DNA from: Actinocorallia herbida
GTDB taxonomy: Bacteria; Actinomycetota; Actinomycetes; Streptosporangiales; Streptosporangiaceae
Reading direction: 5' to 3'
DNA length: 64,000 nt
NCBI RefSeq assembly: GCF_003751225.1
Contig: NZ_RJKE01000001.1
Coordinates: 7,750,001-7,814,000 of the forward strand
The notes under the pieces were generated by a model. That model was not told the origin of the DNA and searched no databases. It worked only from the letters and a program-made list of their open reading frames with translations. Position numbers and translations under genes: made by a program. Shown one piece after another: positions 4,451-26,000 of this stretch (position 1 is the stretch's first letter; each line of letters opens with the position of its first letter).

Positions 4451-4457
4451 GAGCGGC

Positions 4458-6931: not shown

Positions 6932-7002
6932 GCGGATGTAGCTCAATGGTAGAGCCCTAGTCTTCCAAACTAGCTACGCGGGTTCGATTCCCGTCATCCG
7001 CT
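6932..7002 (+). tRNA. tRNA-Gly (anticodon TCC)
   Basis: A 71-nt cloverleaf. Acceptor GCGGATG (6932-6938) pairs with CATCCGC (6995-7001), with discriminator T at 7002. The anticodon stem is CTAGT/ACTAG with loop CTTCCAA (anticodon TCC), and the T arm is GCGGG-TTCGATT-CCCGT. CCA is not encoded. Confidence 0.96.
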
Positions 7003-7011
7003 CCGAGCAGC

Positions 7012-7051
7012 AAAGGCCCAGGTCGGAGACCCTTTCTCAGACCGGGCCTTT
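7012..7051 (+). terminator. Terminator of tRNA-Gly
   Basis: AAAGGCCCaGGTC (from 7012) pairs with GACCGGGCCTTT (ending 7051) with one bulged base, and the T-rich TCTTCTTTCC follows. It begins 9 bases after the tRNA. Confidence 0.85.
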
Positions 7052-7765
7052 CTTCTTTCCCGGGATCGGTGTGCGCGTGGGCGTCCCAGTCGGGGCTTTC
7101 GCAGGGGGGACGTGGCACGGGTGATCTTCCCGTCGTCGCGGGTGACGCTCCATTCGCACTGCTTGTCCTGCAGGTCGTGGTCGGCGTCGGCGTGTGTGCC
7201 CGGTGTTGCGGGTCGCTGATCGGCGAGATCTCGACCAGGCTCGGAAGGCGGTCCGTGCACGGTGGCCTCGACCGCGTCGGACTCCGTCGGGGTCCCGGCG
7301 AGGTCGTGGAACTGGGACCGAGGGCCGTCGTGCGGCGCCGTGTGCTCGTCCGGGCCCCTGATGGCCGCGCCGACGGTGTCGGAGAGGAAGGTGCGCCATG
7401 CCGTCCGGCCGGCCTCGTCGAGGTCGGTGAGTCCTCCGGGCGGGCCGTAGGCGTCGATGGTGCCCGTGGTCGTCGTAGTCGGCGAAGGCGCGGGGCGTGC
7501 CGATCCTCATGGTGATCGCGGCCAGGTCCGCGTCCAGGCGACCGCCGAAGACGGTCCGCCATGTGTCGCCGGGCAGCGCCCGGTTCGCGGCGAACTCCTG
7601 CTCCGTGCCGTGCTCCGGAAGGGATCGGGCCGCCGCGGCGGCCCTGGCGGCCGGCCGTGGCCCGTCCCTCGGGCGGCCGGCGCCTGCCATCGCTTCGAGT
7701 TCTGCCGTGAGGGGACGGCCCGCACGGCCGGTCGCCCGTGTGTGCTGGTCGGTCTCTTCCCGCAT
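7052..7765 (-). pseudogene. Decayed, multiply frameshifted gene of unknown family
   Basis: No single frame is convincing, but codons with high G/C at the third position switch frame repeatedly along the minus strand. One frame starts at the ATG at 7765 (MREETDQHT) and runs to about 7465 (FADYDDHG). The next carries TIDAYGPPGGLTDLDEAGR (about 7465-7405). A third carries TAWRTFLSDTVGAAIRG. The coding-like signal then alternates again (LPSLVEISPISDP, then QCEWSVTRDDGKIT near 7145). Each switch fits a small indel. I do not recognise the family. The remnant ends near the tRNA-Gly terminator, and its start faces away from the kinase gene at 7943. Sequencing error is the alternative, but four separate shifts make that unlikely. 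Confidence 0.5.
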
Positions 7766-7942
7766 AGGCCTGGGGTCAACGGATGCGACGATGAGCGACG
7801 CCGAGGAGGGATATGGACGGAGATGGTGGGCGGCGGGGGTGGAACGGGTGCGTCGGTGTGAATCGGCGTTGTACGGTCGCGAACGGCCGACGTGGGTTGC
7901 GCGTCGGAGAAGGCGGTTCGGTGGCTTAGGGGGAGGCTCGGG

Positions 7943-10084
7943 GTGGACGGTGCGGTGCGCGTGCTGGCGGGGCGGTATGAGCTCGGGGACGCGGTGGGGA
8001 GGGGGGCCACCGGGGTCGTCTACCGGGGGGTGGACCGGGAGGGCGGGCGGGTCGTGGCGGTGAAGGTGGTGGATGAGGGGCTGGTGCGGGGGCTCGGGTC
8101 CGCGGCGTTCGCCGTTCGGGAGGTGTGGACGCTCGCGGAGGTCAGGCATCCGGGGGTGGCGGAGATCCGGGATGTGGGGAACGACCCGGAGCACGGGGTC
8201 TGTGTGGTCACCGAGTTCGTCGAGGACGGGGAGCGGGTCGATGGGCTGGCGGACGGGGGGTTGCATCCGGACGCGGTGCTGGAGATCGCCGAGGGGGTGC
8301 TCGCCGTCCTGGCCGAGGGGCATGGGCGGGGGGTGGTGCACGGGGATGTGAAGCCTTCGGATGTGCTCGTGGTGCGGCGGGGCGGGCGGCTGCGGGTGAA
8401 GGTGACGGACTACGGGCTGGTGCGGGTGCTGTCGGGGACGGGGACGCGGTTCACGCAGTCGGGGGAGATGATCGGCGGGGCGGCCTGGACGCCGCCGGAG
8501 GAGGCCGAGCGCGGTGCGGACGGGACCGCGTGGAACCCGGTGGGGGAGGTCGCGCCGGGTGGGCCGGAAGGCGACGTCTACTCGGTCGGGTGCCTGCTTT
8601 ACGGGCTGCTCACCGGGCGGCCTCCCTTCCGCGGGGACGTGCAGGGGGTGCTGCACCAGCAGGTGCACCGGGTCGCCGAGCCGCCGTCCCAGGCCGTGCG
8701 GGGGCTCTCGCCGCAGTGGGACGCCATCCTGATGCGGGCGCTCGCGAAGCGTCCGCAGGACCGGTACGCCGACGCGGCGGCCATGCGGGACGCGCTGGAG
8801 CCGCTGCGCGTGGCCGCGCCCTACCGTCCGGTCGCGGCGCCGGCGGCGCCGAAGGGCGCGAGCGAGCCTTCGCCGGGGAGGCGGCGGCGCGGTCGCGCGC
8901 TATGGCTGGTCCCCGTCGCCGGGCTGACCGCGGCGGCGGCCGCGGCCTATCTGCTCACCGGGACGGGCGGGGGCCTCCCCTCCGCGTCCGGCGCTCCGTC
9001 TTCGCCGGCCGCCGCGGTCCCGGTCTCGCCCGCGTCGGCCGCGCCGGTCGTCCTCGGGCACCTGACGGCGCTGGGAGACGGCTTCGACGAGGACGTGCAG
9101 GCGGTACGCCTCGCGGTCGACGCCTACAACGCCACGCGGCCCGCGGTCCGCGTGGAGCTGCGGCTGTACGACACCGCGGGCGACGACGAACGGGCGGCCG
9201 CGCAGGCCGCGGTGGACGACGGCGTGGTCGGCATCGTCGGTCCGGCGTCTTCCGATGACGCCACTGCCTTCGGGCCCGTCCTCGAAGGGGCGGGTGTTCC
9301 GAACGTCGCGTACGGCACCACCGTGGCGGACCTCGGAAGCCAGGGCTTCGCCTACTGGCACCGGGTCATCGCCGGAGACGACGTGCAGGGCGAGGCCGTA
9401 GGGACGTTCCTCCGGACGGGGTTGAAGGCCGAACGCGTAGCGGTGATCCACGACAACACCGAAGACGGACGTCCGCTCGCCGACCGGGTCCGTCAGGTGG
9501 TGGAGGCCCGGGGCGGAAAGGCCAGGGCCTGGGACTACGAGCTCGCCGACACCGGCTTCGGGGACCTCGTGGACGGGGTGCGCGGCTTCAAGCCGGACGC
9601 GGTGTTCGTCGCCGGGCACGGCCAAGGGGCGGGAAGGCTGCTCAGGGCCTTGCGCGACGGTGAGGTGACCGTGCCCTTCGTCGGCGGAGACGGCACGTTC
9701 GGGCGGGAATTGATCAGCGCCGCAGGAGATGCCGCCGAAGGCGCATTCGCGTCCTGCGCCTGTCTGGTCGACCCCGAAGGCACATCCTCGCCTCCTGCGG
9801 GCGAATTCGCCGAGGCTTACCGCGCCGCGTACGGTGAAGCCCCTTCCGACGCTTATACGGCCGAGGCCTATGACGCGGCGACGCTCTTCCTCGAAGCGGT
9901 GAGATCCGGGGCGGCCCTTCGCCAGGACGTCAACGCCTGGCTCGGCGGAGCACACCTCGCCGGTGTGACGGGCCCGCTCGGCTTCACGGAGCACGGCGAG
10001 CCCGAGGACGCCACGATCCACCTCTACCGGGTGGACCACGGCGCCTTCGTCCGGCTCGGCACCACCACCGAAGCACGCCCCTGA
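7943..10084 (+). CDS. Ser/Thr protein kinase fused to an extracellular substrate-binding (Peripla_BP_6-like) domain
   Basis: A 713-residue single-pass receptor kinase. The kinase domain (about 12-290) has the glycine loop GRGATGVV, VAVK (Lys41) and a C-helix Glu. A Pro/Arg linker precedes one membrane helix near 318-340, followed by a Ser/Pro/Ala stalk. The extracytoplasmic domain (about 365-710) resembles branched-chain amino-acid-type binding proteins (VVGIVGPASSDDATAFGPVLEGAG). The architecture is known in actinobacteria and should couple ligand binding outside to phosphorylation inside. Unusually, the catalytic loop reads HGDVKPSDVL instead of HRDxKPxN, DFG is DYG, and the activation segment lacks a normal GTPxYMAPE. 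Activity may be altered or lost. GTG at 7943 is chosen because AGGGGGAGG lies 6 bases upstream; an in-frame start at 7892 lacks a site. Confidence 0.88.
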   Translation: MDGAVRVLAGRYELGDAVGRGATGVVYRGVDREGGRVVAVKVVDEGLVRGLGSAAFAVREVWTLAEVRHPGVAEIRDVGNDPEHGVCVVTEFVEDGERVDGLADGGLHPDAVLEIAEGVLAVLAEGHGRGVVHGDVKPSDVLVVRRGGRLRVKVTDYGLVRVLSGTGTRFTQSGEMIGGAAWTPPEEAERGADGTAWNPVGEVAPGGPEGDVYSVGCLLYGLLTGRPPFRGDVQGVLHQQVHRVAEPPSQAVRGLSPQWDAILMRALAKRPQDRYADAAAMRDALEPLRVAAPYRPVAAPAAPKGASEPSPGRRRRGRALWLVPVAGLTAAAAAAYLLTGTGGGLPSASGAPSSPAAAVPVSPASAAPVVLGHLTALGDGFDEDVQAVRLAVDAYNATRPAVRVELRLYDTAGDDERAAAQAAVDDGVVGIVGPASSDDATAFGPVLEGAGVPNVAYGTTVADLGSQGFAYWHRVIAGDDVQGEAVGTFLRTGLKAERVAVIHDNTEDGRPLADRVRQVVEARGGKARAWDYELADTGFGDLVDGVRGFKPDAVFVAGHGQGAGRLLRALRDGEVTVPFVGGDGTFGRELISAAGDAAEGAFASCACLVDPEGTSSPPAGEFAEAYRAAYGEAPSDAYTAEAYDAATLFLEAVRSGAALRQDVNAWLGGAHLAGVTGPLGFTEHGEPEDATIHLYRVDHGAFVRLGTTTEARP

Positions 10085-10312
10085 CCAAACCCCTCCTTTT
10101 CCCTTCTCTTCATTACATGACCGACAATCACCCTCATCCAGGCGCTCCCCCACCCCTACCGCCGCACGCCTCGCCATATACTGAAGGCGTCGAAGTGAAG
10201 GACCGGAACATCCGGGTTGATATTCCCTCCCTCATTTCGGCCCCGCAAAGGCACTGCGAGAAGGGCCGCCACGGTCCCTATCGATCAGGCCAAGGCGAGA
10301 AGAAGGAAACAC

Positions 10313-10354
10313 CGCCGGAGACGAGCAATACGGCTCGCCTCCGGCGTTTCTTTT
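10313..10354 (+). terminator. Terminator downstream region of the receptor kinase
   Basis: CGCCGGAGaCGAGC (10313-10326) pairs with GCTCGcCTCCGGCG (10333-10346) with one mismatch, followed by TTTCTTTT. The 230 bases between the kinase stop and this hairpin are less GC-rich and contain no credible gene. Confidence 0.85.
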
Positions 10355-10395
10355 GCCCGCGGCCCGGCCGCGGGCGAGACCGGGTAGGGCGGGAT

Positions 10396-10435
10396 CGGGC
10401 TGTGGGTCGGGCTGTGGGTCGGGCTGTGGGTCGGG
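10396..10435. repeat. Three tandem copies of a 12-bp unit
   Basis: The unit GTCGGGCTGTGG is repeated three times head to tail (first copy with A for G at its first base), followed by a partial copy. It lies between the terminator and the DUF3068 gene, upstream of the probable start at 10497, so it is probably non-coding. Confidence 0.8.
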
Positions 10436-10496
10436 ACAAAGAAGGTTGGGTGCGGGGATGAGGCTGGGGGCGGGAGGGGGGCGGGAGGATCGGGGG

Positions 10497-11456
10497 ATGG
10501 GCAGGTCAGGGCGGGTTCGGGTGGTGGCGGCGGGGTTGATGGCGGCGGGGACGTTCGGGGTGTCGGCGGCGGTGCTGGTGTGGGGCGGGGCGGGTGACCG
10601 GATGGTCAAGGCACCCGCGTGGATCAAGGACGAATGGGTGCTCACGGGGAGCGGGGAGTACCTGGATCTGGCGAAGGGGCGGCGGGTCGAGAACGCGCGG
10701 GTGACCAAGACGCGGAGCCTGACGGCGGTGCCGGCGCTGAGCAGCGGCCGGGTCGCGGTGTGGGACTCCTTCGCGCAGACCGTCGACGCCGAGACCGGCA
10801 CGGTGCTGGGGGTGGAGAACTGGCGGCTGGCGTTCGACCGGCGGACGGGGCGGCTGGCCAACTGCTGCGGTGCCCACGTCGACAAGGACACCGGGGTCCC
10901 GCAGTCCGGGCTGGGCTACCTGTGGCCGTTCACCGGCGTGCGGGTGGCGACCTACCAGGTGTTCGACCCGGTGCTGAAGCGGTCCTGGGGCGCGGGGTTC
11001 ACCGGCGAGGAGACCATCGACGGGATACGGACGTACCGGTTCGTCGAGCGCGTACCATCAACGCCGGTCGGCGAGCTCAAGGGTGTCTCGGGCGCCTTCC
11101 TCGGACTGAAGAAGGGCGCCGTGTACGACGTTGAGAGGGCCTACGAGGCGGAGATCACCGTCTGGGTGGACCCGCGGACGGGCATCCCCGTGGACCGCCG
11201 TGAGCAGACGACCATGACCCTGCGCGTCCAGGTGAAGGACGCCGAGCCCGTCGTCCTTTCCCGCCTCGACGTCCGGCTGGACGCGGACGGCCGCGAGGCC
11301 GCCCTGCGACGGGCCGAGGACCAGGCGGCCTACGTGCGCAGGGTGCAGGTCGTGATCCCTTCGGTGGCGGTCGGCGCCGGCTTCTCGCTGGCGGTCTCGG
11401 GCGCCGCCATCGCGTGGCGGGCCCGCAGGCCGAAGGCGCGGGAGCAGGCCGGATGA
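10497..11456 (+). CDS. DUF3068 (PorA-family) membrane-anchored protein, copy 1
   Basis: A 319-residue protein with an N-terminal membrane anchor/signal (about 8-30), a large extracytoplasmic domain and a second membrane helix near 280-305, then a short basic tail. Family features shared with the copy at 23275 are GEYLDLAKG, VWDSF, WRLAFDRRTGRL with a Cys-Cys pair, PQSGLGYLWPF, and ITVWVDPRTGIPVD. The family is annotated in databases as porin PorA-like, but its biochemical role is poorly established. ATG at 10497 is chosen for the site GGGAGG 8 bases upstream; an in-frame ATG at 10458 is the alternative. Its stop overlaps the next gene's start (ATGA), indicating coupled translation. Confidence 0.82.
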   Translation: MGRSGRVRVVAAGLMAAGTFGVSAAVLVWGGAGDRMVKAPAWIKDEWVLTGSGEYLDLAKGRRVENARVTKTRSLTAVPALSSGRVAVWDSFAQTVDAETGTVLGVENWRLAFDRRTGRLANCCGAHVDKDTGVPQSGLGYLWPFTGVRVATYQVFDPVLKRSWGAGFTGEETIDGIRTYRFVERVPSTPVGELKGVSGAFLGLKKGAVYDVERAYEAEITVWVDPRTGIPVDRREQTTMTLRVQVKDAEPVVLSRLDVRLDADGREAALRRAEDQAAYVRRVQVVIPSVAVGAGFSLAVSGAAIAWRARRPKAREQAG

Positions 11457-12343
11457 TGCGGTTCCTGCGGCCGGTGCTCGGCCTGCTCGCGGTCGGCTTC
11501 CTGGCCAGGCGGATCTACCTGGACCGGGCGGACCTCGCGACCGCCCTCTCGACCCTCTCCCCCGCCGCCTTCGGGACCGCGCTGGCCCTGGTCATCGCCG
11601 GGCTCGTCGCGATGATGCTGGCGTGGCGGACCGTGCTGGCCGACCTCGGGTCGCCGCTCCCGGTGCCCGCGGCGGCCCGGATCATGTTCGCCGGGCAGCT
11701 CGGCAAGTACGTCCCCGGCTCGGTCTGGGCGATGGTCGGGATGGCCGATCTCGCCCGTGACCGGGGTGTGCCGCCGGGCCGGACGGTCGGCTCCGCGACG
11801 ATCTCGCTGGCGCTGACCCTCGGATGCGCGCTCGCCCTCGCGGCGGCCCGGCTGCCCGGCGCGTTCTGGCCGGTGCTGGTGCTCGTGGTGTGCGGGCTGC
11901 ATCCGAAGGTGCTGGCGTGGGCGCTCTCGGTGCCGTTCCGGGTGCTGCGCCGCCCGGTCCCCGAGCACCGGGTGAGCGGGGCGGGGCTGATCGAGGCGGC
12001 CGGTTGGACGGCGGTCGGCTGGCTGCTGTGGGGCGGCGCGGTGTGGGTGCTGGCGGACGCGGTCGCGCCGGCCGGCACCGGATGGTCGCTGTATCCGGTC
12101 GCCGTCTGCGCCTACGCGCTGGCCTGGGCGGGCGGCATCCTTGTCGTGCTGGCCCCGGCCGGCCTGGGGGTGCTGGACGGGGCGCTGGTGCTGGGGCTGA
12201 CCCCGGCCCTGGGCGGTTCCGCGGCGCTGGCCGTGGCCGTCGCGGTCCGCGCGGCGCTGATCCTCGCCGACGTCCTGGTCGCCGCGGCCGGGCTGCTGGT
12301 GCCCGCTCAGGCGCGGGAACGGAAGAGCACCGAGTTGATGTAG
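11453..12343 (+). CDS. Flippase-like membrane protein (lysylphosphatidylglycerol synthase TM-region family)
   Basis: A 296-residue polytopic protein with about eight helices. The motif GQLGKYVPGSVWAMVG near residue 79 and the C-terminal LAPAGLGVLDGALVLGL are typical of the LPG_synthase_TM family, which includes the MprF flippase half and many proteins in glycan clusters. No aminoacyl-transferase domain is attached, so a lipid or glycolipid translocation role linked to the neighbouring glycosyltransferases is a reasonable inference. The start overlaps the stop of the DUF3068 gene. Its last 37 bases overlap the convergent FkbM gene. Confidence 0.83.
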   Translation: MMRFLRPVLGLLAVGFLARRIYLDRADLATALSTLSPAAFGTALALVIAGLVAMMLAWRTVLADLGSPLPVPAAARIMFAGQLGKYVPGSVWAMVGMADLARDRGVPPGRTVGSATISLALTLGCALALAAARLPGAFWPVLVLVVCGLHPKVLAWALSVPFRVLRRPVPEHRVSGAGLIEAAGWTAVGWLLWGGAVWVLADAVAPAGTGWSLYPVAVCAYALAWAGGILVVLAPAGLGVLDGALVLGLTPALGGSAALAVAVAVRAALILADVLVAAAGLLVPAQARERKSTELM

Positions 12344-13083
12344 CGGGGCTCGGGGCGCAGCGCCCGCCGTAGGAATCCGCGGTCAAGGTCGCCCACGCAG
12401 GCGCGCTGGTGGCCCTCCAGATCGAACTCCGCGAGCGGGGTCCACTCCCCCGCCACCAGGACCTCGCCCAGGTAGCCCCACGACTCCAGCAGCGCGACGA
12501 CCGGGGCCACCGGCTGGTGGCGCGCCTCCAGCTCGAGGAGGATCACCGGACGGTCCCGCCGGACGGTCTCGGCGGCGCCGCGCAGCGCGGGCAGCTCGTG
12601 CCCCTCGATGTCGAGCTTGAGGAACCCGACGTCGGTCAGCCCCAGATCGTCGATCCGGACGCAGGGCACGGCCTGCCCTTCCCCGCCGGGCACATCGGCC
12701 TCCAGGACGGCGGTCCCGCCGCGCGGGGCGGTGCCCGTCACCTTGGACGTCCCGGCCAGGCGGGTGCCCGGCGTCGCGGCGAACGCGGCGGTGCCGGGGA
12801 ACTCCGAGACGGCCGCGGCGATCACCTCGGCCCGGGGGAAGGTCCTGGCGAGCATCCGGGCCATCGTCGGGTCCGCCTCGATCGTGACGACCCGGTCGGC
12901 CCGCGCCAGCAGGCTCCGCGTCCAAGGGCCGAACCAGCCTCCCGCGTCCACCGCGGTGCCGCCGCGCGGGACGAACTCGTCGATCCTGGCGAGTTCGGGC
13001 TCCAGCCGGGGGTAGAGCGCCCGGACCAGACGGCCGAGCAGCGGCCGGGGCAGGACGCGGGCGAGGGCGGGACCGGCGGTCAT
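12307..13083 (-). CDS. FkbM-family SAM-dependent methyltransferase
   Basis: A 258-residue class I methyltransferase. The SAM-binding region GGTAVDAGGWFGPWTR is near residues 41-56, followed by VVTIEADPTMARM. The FkbM signature is FLKLDIEGHELPALRGA near residue 153. FkbM enzymes O-methylate sugars or small molecules, and beside two glycosyltransferases a glycan O-methylation role is likely. The ATG start is at 13083. The GT4 gene ends 25 bases upstream on the same strand, so the two likely form an operon with the GT2 gene above. The exact substrate is unknown. Confidence 0.88.
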   Translation of the reverse strand: MTAGPALARVLPRPLLGRLVRALYPRLEPELARIDEFVPRGGTAVDAGGWFGPWTRSLLARADRVVTIEADPTMARMLARTFPRAEVIAAAVSEFPGTAAFAATPGTRLAGTSKVTGTAPRGGTAVLEADVPGGEGQAVPCVRIDDLGLTDVGFLKLDIEGHELPALRGAAETVRRDRPVILLELEARHQPVAPVVALLESWGYLGEVLVAGEWTPLAEFDLEGHQRACVGDLDRGFLRRALRPEPRYINSVLFRSRA

Positions 13084-13108
13084 GGTGCTCCAAACGGCGG
13101 TGGGTCGG

Positions 13109-14221
13109 TCATGCGGGGTCGAGGAGTGCGGCGATGCGGCGGGCGGTGGAGTCCCAGTCGAAGCGGCCCGCCCACTCCCGGCAGGCGGCGTCCAGCTCCG
13201 CCCTCCGGACGGGGTCGGCGACCTCCTTCAGCGCGGCGCCCACGGTCTCGCCGAACGCCTCGGCGGTCGGCGCGAGCCACCCGGTGATCCCGTCCCTGAC
13301 GGAGTCGCGCAGCCCGTCGACGTCGGGCGCCACCGTGGGGACGCCGTGCGCGGCGGCCTCCACGACGCCCAGGCCCCACCCCTCTCCGGCGGAGGCCGCC
13401 ACGTGCAGCCATGCCTCGGACAGGAGCTCGGCCTTGCGCTCGTCGGTCACGAATCCCTCGAACCGAAGGGTATCGGCGAGGCCGTGTGCGCCCGCCAGAC
13501 GCTCCAGCCGCGCCCGGTCGGGCCCCTTGCCGACGATCCGGACGACGAGGCCGGGGAAGTCCTCTCGGAGCCTTACAGCGGCCTCGATCACGAGGTCGAT
13601 CCGCTTGTGCCGGACCAGCCGCCCGACGCAGACGATCGTCGGCGCCTCGGCGGGCGCCCTGACCCCCGACGCGACGGGTTCGGTGCCGTTGGGCACGAGG
13701 TGGATCTCGCCGGGCCAGTCCAGCCGGGCGCGCATCGCCTGCACCGTCGAAGGGGAGACCGCCGCGGTGGCCCGCCGCCGGTAGGTCCGCCGGGCGACCG
13801 GCCCCTCCAGGAATCTGCCGAACCGGGCGACGGCCGGGGGAAGGTACTCGCCGAACTGGCGGTCGTGGACGTGGTGGACCACGCAGACGACGGGCACCCG
13901 GCGCGGGGTGACCCACGGGGTGAAGAAGGGGATGCCGTTCTGGCAGTCGACGACGCCGTCGAAGGAGCCGCGCCGGGCGGCCAGCCAGGCCAGGACGCGC
14001 GGGTAGACGCCGAACCTGCCGCCGAGCCTGACCACCCGCACCCCGTCGGCGTGGTCGGTGCGCGCCTGCCCGGTGTCCCGCGCCGTCAGGTAGGTGACGG
14101 CGTCGCCCTGCGCGGCGAGGCGGGTCGCCACCTGCCAGGCATAGGTCTCGGCGCCGCCCGCGTCGCGGTGCCAGGGGTCGCGCCAGTTCACGACGGCGAT
14201 CCGCCGCGCGGAGCGGGTCAT
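13109..14221 (-). CDS. GT4 family glycosyltransferase (GT-B fold)
   Basis: A 370-residue GT-B enzyme. The N-terminal donor/acceptor half starts VVNWRDPWHRDAGGAETYAWQ, a typical GT4 glycine-rich loop. The C-terminal half has VGRLVRHKRIDLVIEA and the nucleotide-sugar binding Glu motif ASAGEGWGLGVVEAAAHGVPTVA. The reading frame is open upstream to 14929, but the real start is the ATG at 14221: it overlaps the TGA of the GT2 gene (ATGA) and begins just before the domain. It probably transfers a hexose onto an envelope glycolipid or polysaccharide in the cytoplasm. The substrate is not predictable from sequence. Confidence 0.9.
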   Translation of the reverse strand: MTRSARRIAVVNWRDPWHRDAGGAETYAWQVATRLAAQGDAVTYLTARDTGQARTDHADGVRVVRLGGRFGVYPRVLAWLAARRGSFDGVVDCQNGIPFFTPWVTPRRVPVVCVVHHVHDRQFGEYLPPAVARFGRFLEGPVARRTYRRRATAAVSPSTVQAMRARLDWPGEIHLVPNGTEPVASGVRAPAEAPTIVCVGRLVRHKRIDLVIEAAVRLREDFPGLVVRIVGKGPDRARLERLAGAHGLADTLRFEGFVTDERKAELLSEAWLHVAASAGEGWGLGVVEAAAHGVPTVAPDVDGLRDSVRDGITGWLAPTAEAFGETVGAALKEVADPVRRAELDAACREWAGRFDWDSTARRIAALLDPA

Positions 14222-15006
14222 GCGGCCGGCCGGACCAGCGCCGGGGCGGCCGCCAGCTCGTCCGCCGCGCCCGTGCGCGCGGGCCGCGGCCGGACCGGAC
14301 GGGGCAGCACCGTCCACATCCGGACGAGCTCCGCCAGGACGGGCAGGCCGTGGCGGAGCACGGAGAACTTCGAGCCGGGCACGTCCTGCCAGGTGACCGG
14401 AACTTCGAGCGGCAGGGCGCCGCCGAGCCTGGCGCAGCGGGCGAGGAGCTCGACGTCGAAGGCGAATCCGCTGGCGCGCTGGCCGCGCGCGGCGGCCCGG
14501 ACGAGGTCGCCGTGGAAGAACTTGAAGCCGCACTGGGTGTCGCCGACGCCGGGCACGAGGGTGCGGGAGAACCGCCGGAAGAGCTGCGCGCCGGCGGAAC
14601 GGAGCCTGCTGTGCCGGGCCTGGACGTCGGAGCCGGGGTGGGTGCGGGAGGCGATGACGACGGGGTGGGTGCGCAGCAGGGCCAGGAAAGTCCGCAGGAC
14701 GGCCGGGTCGGTGGCCATGTCCGCGTCGCAGAACCCGACGATCGCGGCCCGCGACGACAGGATGCCGGCCCGCACGGCGGCCCCCTTGCCCCGTTTGGCG
14801 CAGTGCACGAGCCGGACCTCGACGGGTCCGGCCGGCCACGCCCGGACGATGTCGGCGGTCCCGTCGGAGCTGCCGTTGTCGACCACGAGCACCGAGGCGT
14901 GCACCGGCAGCTGGGCGAGCCTGCGGCACAGCAGGTCAAGCCCGCGCGGCAGCCGTTCGGCCTCGTTGAAGGCCGGGACGACGACTTCGACCGTGATCGG
15001 GCTCAT
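14218..15006 (-). CDS. GT2 family glycosyltransferase (dolichyl-phosphate sugar synthase-like)
   Basis: A 262-residue GT-A enzyme of the DPM/DPG-synthase type: VVVPAFNEAERLPRGL at the N-terminus, VDNGSSDGTADIV, KRGKGAAVRAGI, and the metal-binding CDADMATDP near residue 87. A later GDTQCGFKFF segment is typical of polyprenyl-phosphate glucose/mannose synthases. It should make a lipid-linked sugar donor for extracytoplasmic GT-C enzymes, which fits the two GT-C-like proteins encoded nearby. Start choice is uncertain: ATG at 15006 has a weak AAAAGAG site, while in-frame starts at 15024 and 15048 are also possible. It is translationally coupled to the GT4 gene below. Confidence 0.88.
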   Translation of the reverse strand: MSPITVEVVVPAFNEAERLPRGLDLLCRRLAQLPVHASVLVVDNGSSDGTADIVRAWPAGPVEVRLVHCAKRGKGAAVRAGILSSRAAIVGFCDADMATDPAVLRTFLALLRTHPVVIASRTHPGSDVQARHSRLRSAGAQLFRRFSRTLVPGVGDTQCGFKFFHGDLVRAAARGQRASGFAFDVELLARCARLGGALPLEVPVTWQDVPGSKFSVLRHGLPVLAELVRMWTVLPRPVRPRPARTGAADELAAAPALVRPAA

Positions 15007-15103
15007 CGGCGCGCTCTTTTCCATGAGGGGCAGCCTGAACGTAGTCACGCGGCGGCGTCGAGGTCACTATGGTGCATCACTAGCAATTTTGGTCGGTTCA
15101 CCA

Positions 15104-16456
15104 ATGAGCCGGACCATCTCGCGCGGGCACGCTTGGCTGATGTCGTCCCGACCAGCGTCACCAGCCCATCAGGACTCCCTCGACGGCATCCGGGCGGCCG
15201 CCGCGTTGACGGTGGTGGTGCTGCACGTCGCGGGCGAGACGGGCGAGACGTCCGGGATGTCGGCGATCCCCAGGTTCATCGGCCACGGGGACATCGGGGT
15301 CGCGATCTTCTTCGTGCTGTCCGGCCTGCTGCTGTACCGACCGTGGGCGACCGCGCTGTTCTCCGGGAAGGCCGGGCCCGAGACCGTCCCGTACCTGTGG
15401 CGCAGATTCTGGCGGGTCGTCCCGGCGTTCTGGCTGGCCGTCGCGATCGGCCTTCTCGCCTTCAATCCCGAGCACGCCGACGAGTGGCGGACCTGGGCGC
15501 AGCTGCTGGGCATGGTGAGCATCTACGACTTCTCGCCCTGGTGGCCCGGCACCGGCCCGACCGGCATCTACCACCTCTGGACGATCTCCCTGGAGATGTC
15601 GTTCTACCTGGTCCTGCCGCTGCTCGGCGCGGCCCTCGCGGCGGTCGCCGGACGGGCGACGGCGCCCGCGGCGCGGGCGCGGAGGGCGCTGCTGGGGCTG
15701 GCCGCGCTGTACCCGCTGCACCTCGTCTACCAGTACTTCACCTACTTCCCCGAGTGGCGGCCGACCCTCAGCATGTGGCTGCCGCGGAGCCTTCCCTGGT
15801 TCGCGCTGGGCATGGCCCTGTCCGTCGTGGCGGCGTGGGCCGCCGCCGAGCCTTCCGGGCCGGCCCGGCGGTTCAGCGCGGGGGTGGGCGCCGCGCTGCC
15901 CGAGTGCTGGACGGCGGCGGGGCTGCTCTACCTCATCTCGTGCACCGAGCTGACGGGGCCGTTCGGGCTGAACTTCGGATACGACATGTTCTGGCCGTCG
16001 ATCTTCCGGGTCGTCCTGTACGGCGCGGTCTCAGTCCTTCTCGTCGCCCCGCTGGCCCTGCACCCCGGCAACCGCCATAGGCTCGCCGTCTTCTTCGGCA
16101 GCAGGCCCATGGCCTGGCTCGGCCGCGTCTCCTACGGGATCTACCTGTGGCACGCGATCCTCCTGCTCGTGCTCGTCCGGCTGCTCGGACCGCGGGTGCA
16201 CACCCTGCCCTTCGCCTTCGGCGTCCTGCTCGCCCTCACCCTGCTCGTCACCCTCCCGGCCGCCGGGCTGTCCCACCGGTTCCTCGAGGAGCCGGTCCGG
16301 CGGCTCGGCACCCGCTGGACGGTCCGCCGCCGCCGCGACGAGCAGGCCGACCGCGGCGCAGCACAGCAACTGCGGCACGGCGCCGGCGAGGCTCGCGCCG
16401 AGTCCGCCCGGAAGGAGACCGTGCACAGCGGCGGCGCCGCCCGCGAGGGCGAGTAG
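15104..16456 (+). CDS. Acyltransferase 3 family membrane protein (OafA/YrhL-like)
   Basis: A 450-residue membrane O-acyltransferase with about ten helices. Family marks are DSLDGIRAAAALTVVVLHVAG at the N-terminus, FFVLSGLLLYRPW, YHLWTISLEMSFYLVLPLL, and GRVSYGIYLWHAILL, with HRFLEEPVRRLG near the usual C-terminus. It probably acylates an envelope glycan using a cytoplasmic acyl donor. The canonical protein would end near 16320; here the frame stays open for about 45 more Arg/Glu/Ala-rich residues to 16456. The gene therefore overlaps the convergent aftD gene by 426 bases in total. ATG 15104 and ATG 15140 are both possible starts, with no clear binding site for either. Confidence 0.85.
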   Translation: MSRTISRGHAWLMSSRPASPAHQDSLDGIRAAAALTVVVLHVAGETGETSGMSAIPRFIGHGDIGVAIFFVLSGLLLYRPWATALFSGKAGPETVPYLWRRFWRVVPAFWLAVAIGLLAFNPEHADEWRTWAQLLGMVSIYDFSPWWPGTGPTGIYHLWTISLEMSFYLVLPLLGAALAAVAGRATAPAARARRALLGLAALYPLHLVYQYFTYFPEWRPTLSMWLPRSLPWFALGMALSVVAAWAAAEPSGPARRFSAGVGAALPECWTAAGLLYLISCTELTGPFGLNFGYDMFWPSIFRVVLYGAVSVLLVAPLALHPGNRHRLAVFFGSRPMAWLGRVSYGIYLWHAILLLVLVRLLGPRVHTLPFAFGVLLALTLLVTLPAAGLSHRFLEEPVRRLGTRWTVRRRRDEQADRGAAQQLRHGAGEARAESARKETVHSGGAAREGE

Positions 16457-19400
16457 CGCGGCCGCCGTCCACGACGGGTCGAGGCGCCGGAGCCGGCCGG
16501 GCAGGAGCACCGCGGCGATCCCGACCGCCGCGCCCGGCCAGGAGGCGGTCCAGTAGCCCGCCGCCGCGCCGAGCGGCACGGTGAGGAGCACCGGCAGCGC
16601 GATCGGGGCGGCCGCGGTTCCCGTGCGACGGGCCGGGCGGCGCCGGACCAGGGCGATCCCCGCGACGAGGACGAGCCCCGCCGCGCCCGCCAGCAGGGCG
16701 GTCCGGTAGGCCCGGTCAGGCCCGAAGGACAGCGTGACCGTCCCCTTCGTCCCGGCCGGGACCCACCACCCCTGACGCCAGCCGTCGACCCGGACGGGCT
16801 TGAGCGCCTCGCCCCCGACGGTGGCCGTCCAGCCGCGGTTGAAGTTCTCCCCGGACATGAGCAGGGCGTCCTCGTCGGCGGCGACCTCGACGGTCCGGGA
16901 GGTCGCCGACCAGGAGCCGATACGGACGCTCCCCGCCGAGCCGGACGGCTCGGGCAGCGCCTCGCGGCCGACCACGAGCCCGTCGATGCGGTACTGCCCG
17001 TAGCGCGAGACCGTGATCCGGTTCTCCCCCTCGGCGAGGGAGACCTTCGCGCACGAGGTGAACCGCAGGGGCCGGCCGGCCAGCACGTCGCCGTAGGTGC
17101 CCTCGGCGCGGGTGGCGACCTGGCCGCCGTTGACCTCGAGGATCGGGCCGAAACCGCACGGCAGCGCGAACGCCGCGTCCGGCGTGGTGCCGATCGCGGA
17201 CACGCCGGGCACCCTGACCTCGGTGACCTGGACGTTCTCCGCGGCCGTGGCGAAGGAGATGCGCAGGCTCTTCGTGCGCAGGGCGGCGAAGCGCAGCATC
17301 CCGGTGTCGTCGAGGACGCCGCCGCGGACCTCCCCGTCGTCGCCCGTGAGGTAGACCTGGATCGGCGCCTCGGCGGCGGGCGGGCGCTCGACCGTGATCC
17401 GGGTGAGCTGCTGGGCGGCGGACCAGCGCAGCGTCAGCGTGGGCTCGTCGTCGTCGGGGTCGGGAAGCCAGGTGGTGGAGGGGTCGTCGTCGAAGGCGGC
17501 GCGGGCCCAGGCGGCCGCTCCGTCCACGGCCTGGCTGCTCGCCCCCGCCTCGGGCAGCGGCCTGAGCCTGGTGTAGTGATCGACGAGCGCGGTCTCTCGC
17601 AGGACGGCGCGGCCGGTCAGCCGTACCCGCCCGGCCGCCGCGGCGAAGGCCCGGTCGAAGCCGTACGCCTCCTCCCCGCCGCGTTCCAGCGACCAGTGGC
17701 AGATCCACCGGTCGGCGCCGCGCATGCACGCCGAAGCCTCGTCGGACCCGCGGGAGAAGACCCAGGACGTCGCGGGCGCCTCGGGCGCCTTGAGGGTGCG
17801 CGACGCCACGACGCCGGGCACCCGCACCTCCGACAGCGCGACGGACGCGCCGAGCTCGGCGGCCTGTGCGGTGGTGAAGCCGATGAAGCGGACGCGCAGC
17901 CACGAGGTCGCGCCCGGCGGGGTGAGCAGGACCTGCTCCTCCCGGTCCGTGCGCACCGTCTGGGTGCGCACGCCGTGCTCGGTCTCGACCGAGATCCGCA
18001 CGGGCGCGGGGCCGAGCGCCTCGTCCGGCACGAGGACGGCCCGGGTGCCGGACACCTCGCGCGGCGCGTCGAAGTCGACCCGCCACCACTGCCCGGCGGC
18101 GCCGGACCAGCCGCCGGACCGCCAGGAGGTGCGCAGGTCGTCGTCCAGCGCGGCGAAGGGCAGGGACCCGGTCTGCTGCTGGGCGGACAGCGCGTCGGGA
18201 TCGGACGCCGACGAGGACGCCGACACCGCCTTCACGCCGGTGTACCGGGCCGTCGTGCGGTAGTCCGCCCAGGGCGGCTCCAGGTAGTCCCTCGGCTCCT
18301 CGCCGTCGGTGAGGGTGGGAGACAGCCCGGTCCGCAACAGGCCGAAGTGGCGCAGCCTGGCGCGCAGCGAGTCCGTGCCGACGGTCGCGGCGGCCCGCAC
18401 GGCGGGCAGGCCCGCGGCGTCGTCGTTGAGGACGGTCGGGCGGTGGGTCTCCAGCAGGCCCTCGTCGGCGAGGTCGAGCAGGGCCTCGGGCGCACCGTCG
18501 ACGTGCAGGAGCGCGGAGGCGCTCTGGAGGGAGACCGCCGCGGCGGCCCCCGCCACCTCGTACACCTCGAGGGCGGGGTACTCCTGGTCGAGGCCGCCCA
18601 CCGCGTCGTCGGTGCTGTAGCCGCCGGTGGTCGGCGGGCCGAACTGGGCGACCTTGGTGAGGCCGGGCGAGTCCGTCAGGGCCTGGTGGACGCGGGCGGG
18701 CCACGCCCCGGTCAGCTCGACCCGGTCGAGGTCATTACGGACCAGGACATAGCGGACACCGACCCGGCCGAGGACGTCGGCGAGGCCGGGCCCGCCGCGC
18801 CCGGTGGCGACACGCCGGTCGACGGCGTCCAGCACCCGGGTCAGCCCGACCGATCCCGCGGCGCCGATCTGCCGCTGCACCCAGCGCACCTCGGAGAGCT
18901 GCTGGAGGGGCTCGTCCAGGGGGCGTCCCCACAGGTACTCGGCGAACCGGGAGCCGGGCAGGGAGAGCACGGCCTGCTGCCCGGTCCTCGCGTTGAGCCA
19001 GGTCGCCGCGTCCGTCCAGTAGGCCGGGACCTGCCTGATCGGGCCGGGCCCGGCGAGGCCGAGCTGGACCGCGGGCGCGGCGGTCGCGGCCAGCGCGACG
19101 ACGACGGCGGCGACCGCGCGCGGCCGGACGGAGGCGAGCAGATGGGCGAGGCCGAGTGCCAGCGGCAGCCGCAGCACCGGATCGAACTTGCGCAGGTTCC
19201 GCAGGGGCGCCAGCGGGCCGTCCAGCAGGTCCCGGACGGGCCCGGCGATGGCCGGCTCCAGCACCCCGATGTGGCCGGCGGAGACCACGACGATCCCGGT
19301 GAGCAGGGTGAGCGTGAGGAAGAGCCGTTCCGGCGCGTCGCGCCGGGTCAGGCCCGCGAGCCCCGCCGCGGCGACGAGCGCGGTGAGCGCCACCAGCCAC

Positions 19401-20302
19401 GGCGTCGTGGCCAGCGCGTGGCCGACGGGCAGGGTCGGGCCGCCGCTGCCGGTCAGCCAGGCGACCCAGTCGGGGGTGCCGCGCAGCACGTTGAGGAGCG
19501 AGGTGACCGGGGTGATGGTCGCGGTGGTCTCGGTGTAGGGCAGGAAGGAGAACGCGTACCCGCCCATGAGCGCGAGCGGGACCGTCCACCACAGGGTCGC
19601 GACGGCGACCATGGCCGTCCACCAGCCCAGCAGCCGCCACTTGGCGGCCTCCCGGTCGCGCGTCACGAGGTAGAGGAACGGCACGACCAGCACCGCGACG
19701 ACCGAGGCGGCGTTCACCCCGCCGCACAGCGCGACCGCGACCGCGGACCGCGCGGCGGCGCCGACCCGGCCGCCTCCGCGCGCCGCGGCGACCAGCGGCA
19801 GGAGGATCCACGGCAGCAGCGCGACCGGCTGGACCTCCGAGGAGAGCACACCGAGGTCGGACATGACGCGCGGGGCCAGCGCGTAGGAGAGCGCGGCGAT
19901 CATCCTGGCGTCCGGCGTGCCGATCCCGAGGCGTCCGGCGAGCCGGTAGAGCCCGGCGAAGGCGGTGACGGCGAGCAGCGCCATCCACAGCCGCTGCACC
20001 ACCCAGCCTTCGAGCCCGATCATCCGGCCGCCGAGGAAGAACTCGGCCATCGGGAAGAGGTAGCCGTTGGCCTGGTTCTGGATCTGGCCGAGCTGGTTGA
20101 CGTCCCAGGCGTGCAGCGACCTGGCGACGAACCCGGCCGGGTCCAGCGCGAAGTCGATCTTGGTGTCGGCGATGAGCTCGCCCGGCCGCGTCAGGAACGT
20201 CAGCGTCACCAGCAGGAGGGCCGCGACGCCCAGCCGCAGCCGGTGCCGCAGCAACGGGACGGCGGCGGCCTCCACGGCCGGCCCGGCGGATTCGGTGCGC
20301 AT
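16031..20302 (-). CDS. aftD: AftD-type alpha-(1->3)-arabinofuranosyltransferase (GT-C, DUF3367)
   Basis: A 1,423-residue protein, close to the 1,400 of M. tuberculosis AftD. The N-terminal 550 residues form a GT-C membrane domain. The first loop carries ADTKIDFALDP and FVARSLHAWD, including the acidic residues expected of the catalytic loop. A large extracytoplasmic C-terminal part contains at least two F5/8-type carbohydrate-binding-like domains (AALDDDLRTSWRSGGWSG and AAFDDDPSTTWLPDP), ending in several helices before about 16320. After the last helix the frame stays open for about 95 charged residues antisense to the acyltransferase gene. In mycobacteria AftD adds arabinofuranose to arabinogalactan and lipoarabinomannan; in this host the acceptor is unknown. 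The ATG at 20302 follows the GT-C-like gene by 8 bases. Confidence 0.87.
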   Translation of the reverse strand: MRTESAGPAVEAAAVPLLRHRLRLGVAALLLVTLTFLTRPGELIADTKIDFALDPAGFVARSLHAWDVNQLGQIQNQANGYLFPMAEFFLGGRMIGLEGWVVQRLWMALLAVTAFAGLYRLAGRLGIGTPDARMIAALSYALAPRVMSDLGVLSSEVQPVALLPWILLPLVAAARGGGRVGAAARSAVAVALCGGVNAASVVAVLVVPFLYLVTRDREAAKWRLLGWWTAMVAVATLWWTVPLALMGGYAFSFLPYTETTATITPVTSLLNVLRGTPDWVAWLTGSGGPTLPVGHALATTPWLVALTALVAAAGLAGLTRRDAPERLFLTLTLLTGIVVVSAGHIGVLEPAIAGPVRDLLDGPLAPLRNLRKFDPVLRLPLALGLAHLLASVRPRAVAAVVVALAATAAPAVQLGLAGPGPIRQVPAYWTDAATWLNARTGQQAVLSLPGSRFAEYLWGRPLDEPLQQLSEVRWVQRQIGAAGSVGLTRVLDAVDRRVATGRGGPGLADVLGRVGVRYVLVRNDLDRVELTGAWPARVHQALTDSPGLTKVAQFGPPTTGGYSTDDAVGGLDQEYPALEVYEVAGAAAAVSLQSASALLHVDGAPEALLDLADEGLLETHRPTVLNDDAAGLPAVRAAATVGTDSLRARLRHFGLLRTGLSPTLTDGEEPRDYLEPPWADYRTTARYTGVKAVSASSSASDPDALSAQQQTGSLPFAALDDDLRTSWRSGGWSGAAGQWWRVDFDAPREVSGTRAVLVPDEALGPAPVRISVETEHGVRTQTVRTDREEQVLLTPPGATSWLRVRFIGFTTAQAAELGASVALSEVRVPGVVASRTLKAPEAPATSWVFSRGSDEASACMRGADRWICHWSLERGGEEAYGFDRAFAAAAGRVRLTGRAVLRETALVDHYTRLRPLPEAGASSQAVDGAAAWARAAFDDDPSTTWLPDPDDDEPTLTLRWSAAQQLTRITVERPPAAEAPIQVYLTGDDGEVRGGVLDDTGMLRFAALRTKSLRISFATAAENVQVTEVRVPGVSAIGTTPDAAFALPCGFGPILEVNGGQVATRAEGTYGDVLAGRPLRFTSCAKVSLAEGENRITVSRYGQYRIDGLVVGREALPEPSGSAGSVRIGSWSATSRTVEVAADEDALLMSGENFNRGWTATVGGEALKPVRVDGWRQGWWVPAGTKGTVTLSFGPDRAYRTALLAGAAGLVLVAGIALVRRRPARRTGTAAAPIALPVLLTVPLGAAAGYWTASWPGAAVGIAAVLLPGRLRRLDPSWTAAALLALAGGAAAVHGLLPGGLGASLAGAVPQLLCCAAVGLLVAAAADRPAGAEPPDRLLEEPVGQPGGREGDEQGEGEQDAEGEGQGVHPRSEQPDEHEQEDRVPQVDPVGDAAEPGHGPAAEEDGEPMAVAGVQGQRGDEKD

Positions 20303-20310
20303 CCTCAGGG

Positions 20311-21777
20311 TCAGCCCTTCCTGGGGTCCAGCTTGTAGAGCGTGAGGTCCGGCCCGGTCAGGACCGGGACGAGCCCGGGGAACCTGGCGCCGAACCCGTC
20401 GGTCTCGGCGTCGACGACGACATAGCGGAAGCCCGCCGCCCGCAGCGGTTCGGTCAGCGGCGCCGCCGACTCCACCAGCGGGGTCAGCGCCGCGGCCCGC
20501 GGATCCTCGGCGGCGACCGTCGTGGCGCCGACCCGGACCGCGTCGTTGAACACGACCCGGCGCGGCAGATACCGGACGAGCGGGTCGAGTGAGCCCCGGC
20601 CGCCGTTCCACGGGTAGGAGCGGTAGGCGTGCCACGGCAGCAGCAGCACGTCGCCGGGAACACGGTCGGCGGCCATGATCTCCCGCGCGGTCGCGAACTC
20701 CGCCGGGTACCGGACGGCCGTGAGCCTGCCCATCCCGCCGAGCAGCAGCCCCGGCAGGAGCAGCAGCGGCGCGGCGACGGCGAGCGGCGCCCAGCCCTCG
20801 CGGAGCCGCGCGACCAGGGCGGCCATCCCGACCGCCTGGAGCAGCGCCAGCGGCGCCACGTACTGCTGGGCGTCGCGCAGCACCGCGAAGCCCGGCCAGA
20901 ACCCGATGAGCGCGCCCAGCAGCCCCGGCGCGAGCGGCTCGCACAGCGCGACCGCGAACCCCGCCGCGGCGGCGACCGCCAGCGGACGGCAGGCCCGCGC
21001 GCCGAACCAGGTCAGCGCCAGCGCGAGCAGCAGCCGCGGGACGGCGAACGCGGGCAGCGCGTAACCGGCGGGAACGACCTCGGCGTTCCACACGCCCGAC
21101 AGGCTCAGCAGGCTGCCGGCGACGCCGAACGGGGTGTCCGCGCGCGCCGCGAACACGTCGGCGCCCACCGGGTCGGCGGGCACCCCGCGCAGCAGCGCCG
21201 GAAGCACCCACGGCAGGCTCAGCACCGCCCAGGCCCCGGCGGTGAACAGCCGCCGCCTGCCGCAGGCCAGCACCGCGGGCAGCGTGACGATCATCGCCAT
21301 GAAGCCCCCGGCGGCGGCGGGCAACAGCGCCGCGACCGTCGCGCGGCGGCCTCCCCGCCGGACCGCGTCGACCGCCCAGGGCAGCCCGGCGTAGCCGAGC
21401 AGCAGCGCCCACTGACCCAGCAGCAGGCGCTCGGCGACGAAAGGGTTCCAGCAGTAGAGGACCGCGGCGGCGACCCTGGCCGCCGGCGGGAGGTCCCGCA
21501 CGAGCCGAGCCGTGCCCGCGCAGGCGAGGACGAAGATCGCCAGCAGGATGAGCTTCTGCACCAGCGCACCCGGCAGGAGCGCGGTGAGCGCGGCGGCCAG
21601 CAGATCGCTGGGGACCGCGCGGGGCGGCGCCGCGGCGAGGCCGATCAGCGCGCCGTCGTACCGCCACCGGGGCACGAACACCATGTCGTAGGCGAGCGTG
21701 AACCCCGGGGCGAGCGCGGGCCCGAGCGCGAGTGCGCCCAGGCCCAGGCCCAGCAGGTACGGCCAGAAGCGGCTCAG
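20311..21777 (-). CDS. GT-C-like polytopic membrane protein of the aftD locus
   Basis: About 488 residues with 10-12 helices. Near the N-terminus is LAYDMVFVPRWRYDG, then CWNPFVAERLLLGQWALLLGYAGLPW, a conserved loop of an actinobacterial GT-C-like family. The soluble C-terminal part (about 370-488) faces outside and ends ATTVAAEDPRAAALTPLV...DLTLYKLDPRKG. Function is unproven; an envelope glycosyltransferase or partner of AftD is likely. No ATG, GTG or TTG fits the N-terminus. The only sensible start is a CTG at 21777 that overlaps the TGA of the small upstream gene (CTGA), implying translational coupling. The next ATG would delete the first helix. Confidence 0.75.
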   Translation of the reverse strand: MSRFWPYLLGLGLGALALGPALAPGFTLAYDMVFVPRWRYDGALIGLAAAPPRAVPSDLLAAALTALLPGALVQKLILLAIFVLACAGTARLVRDLPPAARVAAAVLYCWNPFVAERLLLGQWALLLGYAGLPWAVDAVRRGGRRATVAALLPAAAGGFMAMIVTLPAVLACGRRRLFTAGAWAVLSLPWVLPALLRGVPADPVGADVFAARADTPFGVAGSLLSLSGVWNAEVVPAGYALPAFAVPRLLLALALTWFGARACRPLAVAAAAGFAVALCEPLAPGLLGALIGFWPGFAVLRDAQQYVAPLALLQAVGMAALVARLREGWAPLAVAAPLLLLPGLLLGGMGRLTAVRYPAEFATAREIMAADRVPGDVLLLPWHAYRSYPWNGGRGSLDPLVRYLPRRVVFNDAVRVGATTVAAEDPRAAALTPLVESAAPLTEPLRAAGFRYVVVDAETDGFGARFPGLVPVLTGPDLTLYKLDPRKG

Positions 21778-21902
21778 GGGGTCCCGTAGTTGTAGAGCTC
21801 CGCGCGCGGCGGAGCGACGTTGTCCGACTGGTAGACGAACGTCGTGGTGGCGCCCAGTGCCAGGGCTATCCCCAGCACGCCAGAAACCAGATACGTGGTC
21901 AT
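21774..21902 (-). CDS. Small DUF2613-like membrane protein beside aftD
   Basis: A 42-residue protein: MTTYLVSGVLGIALALG, then a short outside tail ending LYNYGTP. One signal-anchor helix occupies about residues 5-25. The ATG at 21902 has the site GAGGAA 5 bases upstream. DUF2613 proteins (for example Rv0236A) are tiny secreted or membrane proteins encoded beside aftD in other actinobacteria. Position, size and the Tyr-Gly-Thr C-terminus match that pattern. Its stop overlaps the CTG start of the next gene. Function is unknown. Confidence 0.68.
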   Translation of the reverse strand: MTTYLVSGVLGIALALGATTTFVYQSDNVAPPRAELYNYGTP

Positions 21903-22049
21903 TGACTTCCTCGCCCGCTCGCAGGTCCCGACAGGTCCCCCGAGCGTAGGGAAGGCCCGGCCCGACATGCATCGCCGTGCGTCCCAATTCCTTTGTCCGC
22001 GCTTACAAGACGTCCTCGCCCGGGTGCCGGGCGGGTCGGCCCCCGGACG

Positions 22050-23132
22050 TCACGGCGCCGCCTGCGCCGCGTCGGTGATCCGCTCGTACTGGAGCGCCCA
22101 CCAGACCGTCACGAGGTCGTCGACCCGCTCCAGGTGCAGGCCGCTCAGCTCCTCGAACCGCCGGATCCGGTAGCGCAGCGTGTTCGGGTGGACGTGCAGC
22201 TTCGCGGCGGCCTCGGCGATGTGGAGGTCGCGGTCGAGGTAGGCGGTGAGCGTCTCGGTGAACAGGTCGCGCTGCGCCGCCGGGATCGCGCCGAAGCACC
22301 GCTCGGTGACCAGGCCGGTGAGGTTGGGGCTCTCCAGCACGGCGGCGAGCAGCGGCACGTCCTCGATGTGCACCACGCCGGTCATGCCGAACGCCGACGA
22401 GACCCGCAGCACCGTCGAGGCCTGGGCGAACGAGAACGACGCCGATGCCAGCGGCATGCGCTGGCCCATCGCGACGAGCCCGTCGCCCTCCAGCCGGGGC
22501 CGGTGCGCGATGAGGCCGACGAGTTCGCCCTGATGGCTCTCGGCGAGCCCCGCCCCGTCGACGCCCGCCTCGAACCTCCGGCGTGCCTCCGCCCCGGGGA
22601 TCCGCGCCCGGAACGCCGCATAGTGCTCGCCGGGGTCGAGCCCGAACTCCGCGGCGAGCTTGGTCAGCCGCGCCCCGCCCAGCCGGCTGCCGAAAAGGTC
22701 GGTGAGGAAGGCCGCCCTGCGGTACCTGTCCTCCCGCATGATCTCCAGCTCCACCTGGCGGTGCGCCTCGCTGGCGACCTCCAGCGCCTGCACGATCCAC
22801 GGCCACAGCCTGCTGGGCTCGGTGCCGATGACCTCCTGCGCCAGCGCCGCGGCGGTCCGCGCGCCGTGCACGAACGCCGAGAACGGCACCCCGGACCGCG
22901 CCCGCGCGGCGCCGATCCGGGCGACGACCTCGAGTTCGGCCGGGGTCGGCGGGCGGTCCTCGGCGAACGAGGCCGCGGCGGCGCGGACCGCCTCGGTGAT
23001 CCCCGCGAGCAGATCCGCCTGCGGGACGCCCGCGTACTCCGGGACCTCCCGGTACAGCACCTCGCGGCAGTGGTCGATGAAGGCGACCAGCTCGGCGTCG
23101 CCCACGAACCACGAAGGGGACTCAGCGTCCAT
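22050..23132 (-). CDS. PucR-type transcriptional regulator
   Basis: A 360-residue regulator. The N-terminal two thirds form a helical sensory region and a GGDEF-related middle domain without catalytic motifs. The C-terminal 60 residues are the PucR helix-turn-helix (HTH_30): LHIAEAAAKLHVHPNTLRYRIRRFEELSG. The ATG at 23132 follows AGGAGG at good distance. Such regulators often control neighbouring catabolic or envelope genes in response to small molecules. It lies between the aftD operon and the divergent second DUF3068 gene, so both are candidate targets. No operator could be picked out in the 142-base gap at 23133-23274. Confidence 0.88.
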   Translation of the reverse strand: MDAESPSWFVGDAELVAFIDHCREVLYREVPEYAGVPQADLLAGITEAVRAAAASFAEDRPPTPAELEVVARIGAARARSGVPFSAFVHGARTAAALAQEVIGTEPSRLWPWIVQALEVASEAHRQVELEIMREDRYRRAAFLTDLFGSRLGGARLTKLAAEFGLDPGEHYAAFRARIPGAEARRRFEAGVDGAGLAESHQGELVGLIAHRPRLEGDGLVAMGQRMPLASASFSFAQASTVLRVSSAFGMTGVVHIEDVPLLAAVLESPNLTGLVTERCFGAIPAAQRDLFTETLTAYLDRDLHIAEAAAKLHVHPNTLRYRIRRFEELSGLHLERVDDLVTVWWALQYERITDAAQAAP

Positions 23133-24246: not shown

Positions 24247-24251
24247 CGGGT

Positions 24252-25985: not shown

Positions 25986-26000
25986 CCAGGGCGTTCCGCG

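Follow-up and report, generated by a model that had tools for sequence, protein, structure and literature searches.

A 64,000-nucleotide stretch of the Actinocorallia herbida genome (the window) contains a gene that joins a Hanks-type kinase, a predicted transmembrane helix, and a LivK-type binding protein in one frame (Table 1). In the best explanation, which is an even call, the gene encodes a young, lineage-specific single-pass receptor that would bind an amino-acid-like ligand and have a weak or altered kinase output. An active kinase of this sort is ranked over a non-catalytic receptor, the main rival, which is plausible but short of an even call.

A kinase-binding-protein fusion had been predicted here from the letters of the sequence, and Pfam bears this out, with Pkinase (9.6e-32) and Peripla_BP_6 (5.1e-37) both well over the cut-off in the one frame. 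The extracellular domain had been taken for a complete binding protein, and the match indeed covers profile positions 21–339 of 343. The open frame extends from 7892 to 10084 on the plus strand; GTG 7892 is an alternative start that would give 730 aa, and the residue numbers used here are those of the 713-aa form starting at GTG 7943. Codon-position GC over the kinase part (0.83/0.50/0.93) fits that expected of a real gene in a GC-rich genome. AF2 models of the two parts have pLDDT values of 86.3 (kinase) and 93.3 (ectodomain), with residues 166–168, 170–172, and 197–203, near the activation segment of the kinase, below 50. The best structural matches of the kinase model are PknA (4ow8, Z 32.0) and PknB (5u94, Z 31.1), PknB being the best by sequence. 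Judging from the positive charges (RRRRGR) before the helix, the kinase would be cytoplasmic and the binding protein extracellular.

Table 1. Position of the fusion gene, its domains and key residues, and its surroundings in the window
Feature	Position	Strand	Basis
Kinase-transmembrane-binding-protein fusion gene, 713 aa	7943..10084	+	ORF, Pfam, hydropathy
Shine-Dalgarno-like AGGGGGAGG, 6 bases before GTG 7943	7928..7936	+	Sequence
Hanks-type kinase domain (Pkinase)	7976..8776	+	Pfam; AF2 model; PknA/PknB best structural matches
Lys41 (VAIK Lys), kept	8063..8065	+	Lys in 34/34 others
Glu60 (alpha-C Glu), kept	8120..8122	+	Glu in 34/34 others
Catalytic loop HGDVKPSDVL: Gly134 for Arg, Asp135 and Lys137 kept, Asp140 for Asn	8339..8368	+	Alignments
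DYG: Asp156 kept, Tyr157 for Phe	8408..8416	+	Alignment
GGAAWTPPE, P+1/APE segment: Gly179 for GT Thr, Pro-Glu kept	8474..8500	+	Alignment
Predicted transmembrane helix, residues 320-338, after RRRRGR	8900..8956	+	Hydropathy scan
Peripla_BP_6 (LivK-type, type I) binding-protein domain	9092..10036	+	Pfam; AF2; LivK 3td9 match
tRNA-Gly(TCC), left edge of variable interval	6932..7004	+	Matching edge in G002 carries the same tRNA
Interval between blocks collinear with G002	7005..26000		1/10 tested genes (the fusion) matched in 98 kb of G002

The catalytic loop had been read as HGDVKPSDVL and the DFG motif as DYG, and the alignments uphold both. The further claim, that a normal GTPxYMAPE is missing, holds for the letters as such. 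The segment itself is present in register, however, with Pro-Glu kept; the residue lost within it is the Thr of GT. A joint kinase/binding-protein alignment (A1) misaligned the kinases (15%–21% identity) and was replaced by A3 and A4. A3 aligns the fusion kinase with 34 other kinases, drawn from 47 stretches found in its own genome and in relatives. All 34 have Arg at position 134 and Asn at position 140, where the fusion has Gly and Asp; Phe occupies position 157 in 33/34 (Tyr in the fusion) and Thr position 179 in 31/34 (Gly in the fusion). Lys41, Glu60, Asp135, Asp156, Glu186 (the APE Glu), and Asp211 (the αF Asp) are the same in the fusion and all 34 others, and Lys137 matches 33 of them. 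L149 and two domains of L131, own-genome kinases whose loops are odd, fall outside A3 but are counted in the own-genome set. This set was brought in by search, consists of 48 domains including the fusion, and is part of the kinome, to which at least one further kinase (27500–28600) belongs. Among its 47 other domains, the HRD Arg site is Arg in 45 and Gly in 2, the metal Asn site is Asn in 44 and Ser, His, and Thr in one each, with Asp in none, and the Phe of DFG is found in 46. On these alignments, the combination of loop, DYG, and GG is peculiar to the fusion gene among the kinases compared, and the presence of HRDx[KQ]PxN in 34/34 relatives (A3) suggests that the active-site change is derived in the fusion gene.

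Odd loops were also seen elsewhere in the genome. L149 (G000:C1:6563000-6566500) has HRDVKPSSIL, with Ser for the metal Asn, together with DFG and GTPAYRSPE. At L131 (G000:C1:4282300-4289300), two adjacent kinase-like domains (HGDVQPDH with GFG, HGGVEPGT with GFG) stand beside canonical kinases; lacking the catalytic set, the pair likely represents true pseudokinases in a kinase cluster. The second kinase of the window (27500–28600, minus strand) is canonical (HRDLKPSNVV, DFG), adjoins the GH20 gene, and is 88% identical in the sister species (G002).

In a tree of 74 kinase domains, the fusion kinase groups with L003, L040, L045, and L035 of its own genome (support 98/96), its exact place inside the clade being weakly supported (87/32). 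The end branch of the fusion kinase measures 1.19 changes per column, compared with 0.18, 0.18, 0.11, and 0.32 for L003, L040, L045, and L035, respectively. L003, L040, and L045 are 39%–45% identical to the fusion in the kinase part and have HRD, KPxN, and DFG; they share its clade but differ in the canonical loop and in carrying WD40 repeats (Pfam) where the fusion has a binding protein. L035 reads HRDIQPSN, with Gln for the catalytic-loop Lys, and DFG. By tree and alignment, the kinase part is related to HRD/DFG kinases and diverges fast.

The rarity of the HGDxKPxD loop was assessed with a DNA pattern in which the x after HGD and the one after the last D are limited to codons with a middle T. 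It occurs at three places in 297 family genomes, own genome included. Both other family kinases with this loop (L049 and L050) lack D-x-G on by-eye reading, which counts against the best explanation. A slightly longer pattern found 47 stretches in a collection of 84,980 species, of which 19 are kinases by a home-made HMM; among the remaining 28, 21 carry the motif in frame without a kinase match and 7 have no frame carrying it. D-x-G is kept in 13 of the 19, as read by eye from the segments, and the 19 include kinases from Embleya, Mycobacterium, Pseudonocardiales, Armatimonadota, and Sumerlaeota. This scattered recurrence, mostly with D-x-G in place, favors the best explanation. HGDxKPxD does not mark a single family: after omission of 5 weak or short ones from 21 kinase matches, the 16 left are scattered over the tree, none beside the fusion kinase. 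The loop thus has more than one origin; the rows were picked by pattern and hence are silent on loop conservation within each lineage.

The fold, the Pkinase profile, and the presence of the VAIK Lys, the αC Glu, the HxD and DxG Asp, the APE Glu, and the αF Asp place the fusion in the Hanks-type superfamily. From the canonical RD (HRDxKPxN) Ser/Thr kinases it differs in both the Arg before the catalytic Asp and the metal-binding Asn. A pseudokinase, as usually defined in a passage of a 2025 review, has lost the VAIK Lys, the HRD Asp, or the DFG Asp (PMC12599244). The fusion has all three residues (Lys of VAIK, Asp of HxD, and Asp of DxG) and is therefore not a pseudokinase by the usual definition; its residues describe it as a kinase of the non-RD kind whose metal site is altered and whose P+1 Thr is lost. 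Of the two readings offered by the original prediction, the ligand-sensing pseudokinase does not fit that definition, and the unusual active kinase is possible and ranked higher.

With the GT Thr gone and Asp in place of the metal Asn, reduced activity is likely. The GT Thr bonds the catalytic Asp in Ser/Thr kinases according to a section of PMC3513839, and for this reason its loss, named only in passing by the original prediction, may matter most. A Tyr at the Phe site of DFG does not necessarily break the metal loop, since SelO, which is given with DYG in a review table and is counted there as a pseudokinase, transfers AMP (PMC12599244). Non-RD kinases are described as having weak activity in vitro, and in the same portion of that work the catalytic activity of the plant non-RD receptor EFR is dispensable for its signaling (PMC8463890). 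A non-catalytic receptor would work in the way proposed for EFR: the kinase fold would bind nucleotide and signal through its conformation or as a docking site for an active partner kinase. The EFR precedent, three catalytic-region positions altered together, and the long kinase branch favor such a receptor, whereas all three pseudokinase-defining residues and the αC Glu are kept. The key residues are retained despite an end branch of such length, which would argue that nucleotide and metal binding are under selection, bearing in mind that sites differ in rate. Set against an active kinase, the GT Thr, HRD Arg, and metal Asn losses together could abolish phosphotransfer, and the low pLDDT of model residues close to the activation segment weighs against the best explanation as well.

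The fold of the ectodomain model is that of LivK (3td9, Z 40.8, rmsd 2.6, 336 residues aligned), tied with LivJ (4gnr), and with its full-length profile match it is of the type I LivK/Peripla_BP_6 class. A LivK of the same genome (L002), located next to ORFs read as LivH and LivM permeases, is 40% identical to the ectodomain. The nearest relative is L127 of the sister species, at 43% identity, and the two form a pair in the tree (100/99). The first ectodomain tree gave a long-branch warning for L043, L154, and one more sequence, which could have been a member of this pair; upon removal of five distant sequences (L154, L155, L043, L183, and L026) the warning was gone and the pair still had 100/99. 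Both branches are long (L127 1.8, fusion 0.64) and both sequences are odd in letter make-up, so the pairing calls for some caution. L127 starts with its own hydrophobic segment and has no kinase directly upstream. A home-made kinase HMM gave no match in 62 loci of L127 and the LivKs with ∼1.5 kb flanks; these proteins have the same fold as the ectodomain and stand without a kinase in the searched loci. In leucine-binding protein, Ser79, Gly100, Thr102, Tyr202, and Glu226 are taken here to be the ligand contacts. By hand mapping on the alignment, Ser79, Gly100, Thr102, and Glu226 correspond to Ser437, Gly458, Thr460, and Asp583 of the fusion, all identical or like in kind, and Tyr202 corresponds to His559. 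The ligand of the ectodomain is probably amino-acid-like. No ABC permease or ATPase was found among 18 Pfam-scanned window proteins, a subset of the window genes.

Comparison of 40 window genes with 98 kb of contig C4 of G002 places the fusion gene in a variable interval. On either side, 5/5 genes at 314–6597 and 24/25 at 26001–63989 have collinear matches at 67%–97% protein identity. Among the 10 genes tested at 7943–25985, only the fusion matched in G002, to L127 at 40% (E 1e-15). The interval is bounded by tRNA-Gly(TCC) and the GH20 gene in both species, and G002 has other genes there; within it, L127 occupies the GH20 end and the fusion the tRNA end, and both are oriented toward GH20. A variable island of this kind accounts for the lack of orthologues. 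It is also consistent with a kinase having recently been joined to an anchored binding protein, the alternative being that the kinase half was lost in G002. The PgfA-like gene next to the fusion is without a close orthologue in G001 or G002 (33%–36% matches). The island also holds an AftD-type arabinofuranosyltransferase gene (16031–21667, minus strand; GT-C_AftD, 2.4e-212), two PgfA-like envelope genes (10353–11456 and 23275–24246), an FkbM methyltransferase gene, and an acyltransferase gene, which are perhaps an accessory envelope gene set.

A pattern search of genome contigs returned 43 stretches, none encoding a relative. With the full protein as query against its own genome and relatives (21 genomes, E 1e-40), no other match spanned both parts; the remaining ectodomain matches come from frames 393–437 aa long. 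The ectodomain alone gave 29 other matches in 100 family genomes (E 1e-55; frames 390–458 aa) and at least 29 in 246 class genomes (E 1e-40; best 8 candidates per genome scored; frames 381–583 aa), with no orthologous fusion in either set and four places common to the two; these searches would miss kinase fusions to more distant binding domains. None of 559 matching plasmid records had 80% query coverage. Conservation of the active site is hence unsupported by orthologues, none having been found in the searched sets, which counts against the best explanation. A decaying gene, that is, a recent fusion drifting functionless in the variable island, would suit this lack of orthologues, the fast branches in both halves, and the variable interval beside a tRNA, but is quite unlikely in view of 713 open codons with normal codon-position bias, a good Shine-Dalgarno sequence, and two confidently modeled domains with key residues kept. 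Human Bub1 is an active kinase. An ordinary active Ser/Thr kinase with neutral loop changes is highly improbable: the catalytic Asp, the Lys, and the DxG Asp are kept and PMC3513839 lists human Bub1 with an HGD loop, but Asp occupies the Asn site in 0/47 other own-genome domains and 0/34 relatives, and among 297 family genomes HGDxKPxD is confined to 3, the fusion's own being one of them. The HGD loop of Bub1 also speaks for the best explanation.

In the best explanation, the receptor would have originated when a kinase copy was joined to an anchored binding protein. An amino-acid-like ligand would close the ectodomain, and the single helix, probably in dimers, would relay this closure to a kinase domain of the non-RD kind, which is independent of the Arg-phosphothreonine contact. 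The output would be that of a weak or metal-altered (e.g., Mn2+-preferring) kinase with few substrates. A further-reaching version, a young amino-acid-gated receptor kinase from the tRNA-Gly island that, with the Asn-to-Asp change and without the HRD Arg and GT Thr, still works and uses a different metal or acceptor from canonical kinases, is unlikely to hold in every part.

The signals of bacterial Ser/Thr kinases are described as an open question in a section of PMC6069109. In the fusion the sensor is a binding protein, so its ligand would be directly screenable, and the stand-alone binding protein in the sister species, together with a canonical kinase relative in the same genome, makes the effects of the active-site changes testable. 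As far as the searches reached, the fusion is a single gene of a single species, which limits its interest. A literature search, thin on subscription journals, found no report of a kinase-LivK fusion.

PknB-like kinases have a standard order of cytoplasmic kinase, one transmembrane helix, and extracellular sensor, as in the fusion. PknA/PknB-type Hanks kinases share the kinase fold of the fusion but have HRD, KPxN, DFG, GT, and a PASTA sensor, where the fusion has HGD, KPxD, DYG, GG, and a LivK-type sensor. Streptomyces annotation contains product names for kinase/substrate-binding fusions. In WP_168720682.1 of Streptomyces sp. SAT1, a kinase and an SBP_bac_5 domain share one chain, separated by a hydrophobic stretch; like the fusion, this protein pairs a kinase with a solute-binding protein, but the latter is of another family and the kinase has HRDIKPPN and DFG. 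In GlnH-GlnX-PknG, an amino-acid binding protein on the outside is proposed, in the part of the article drawn on here, to control a Ser/Thr kinase on the inside (PMC6069109). By analogy, this precedent of a binding protein feeding a Ser/Thr kinase would support the best explanation, although the proteins there are separate and of other binding-protein and kinase types. The plan of kinase, transmembrane helix, and sensor is already known, as is a chain of kinase and solute-binding protein (SAT1); what appears new, within the searched sets, is the pairing of a kinase with a LivK-type protein and the combined HGD/KPxD/DYG/GG changes.
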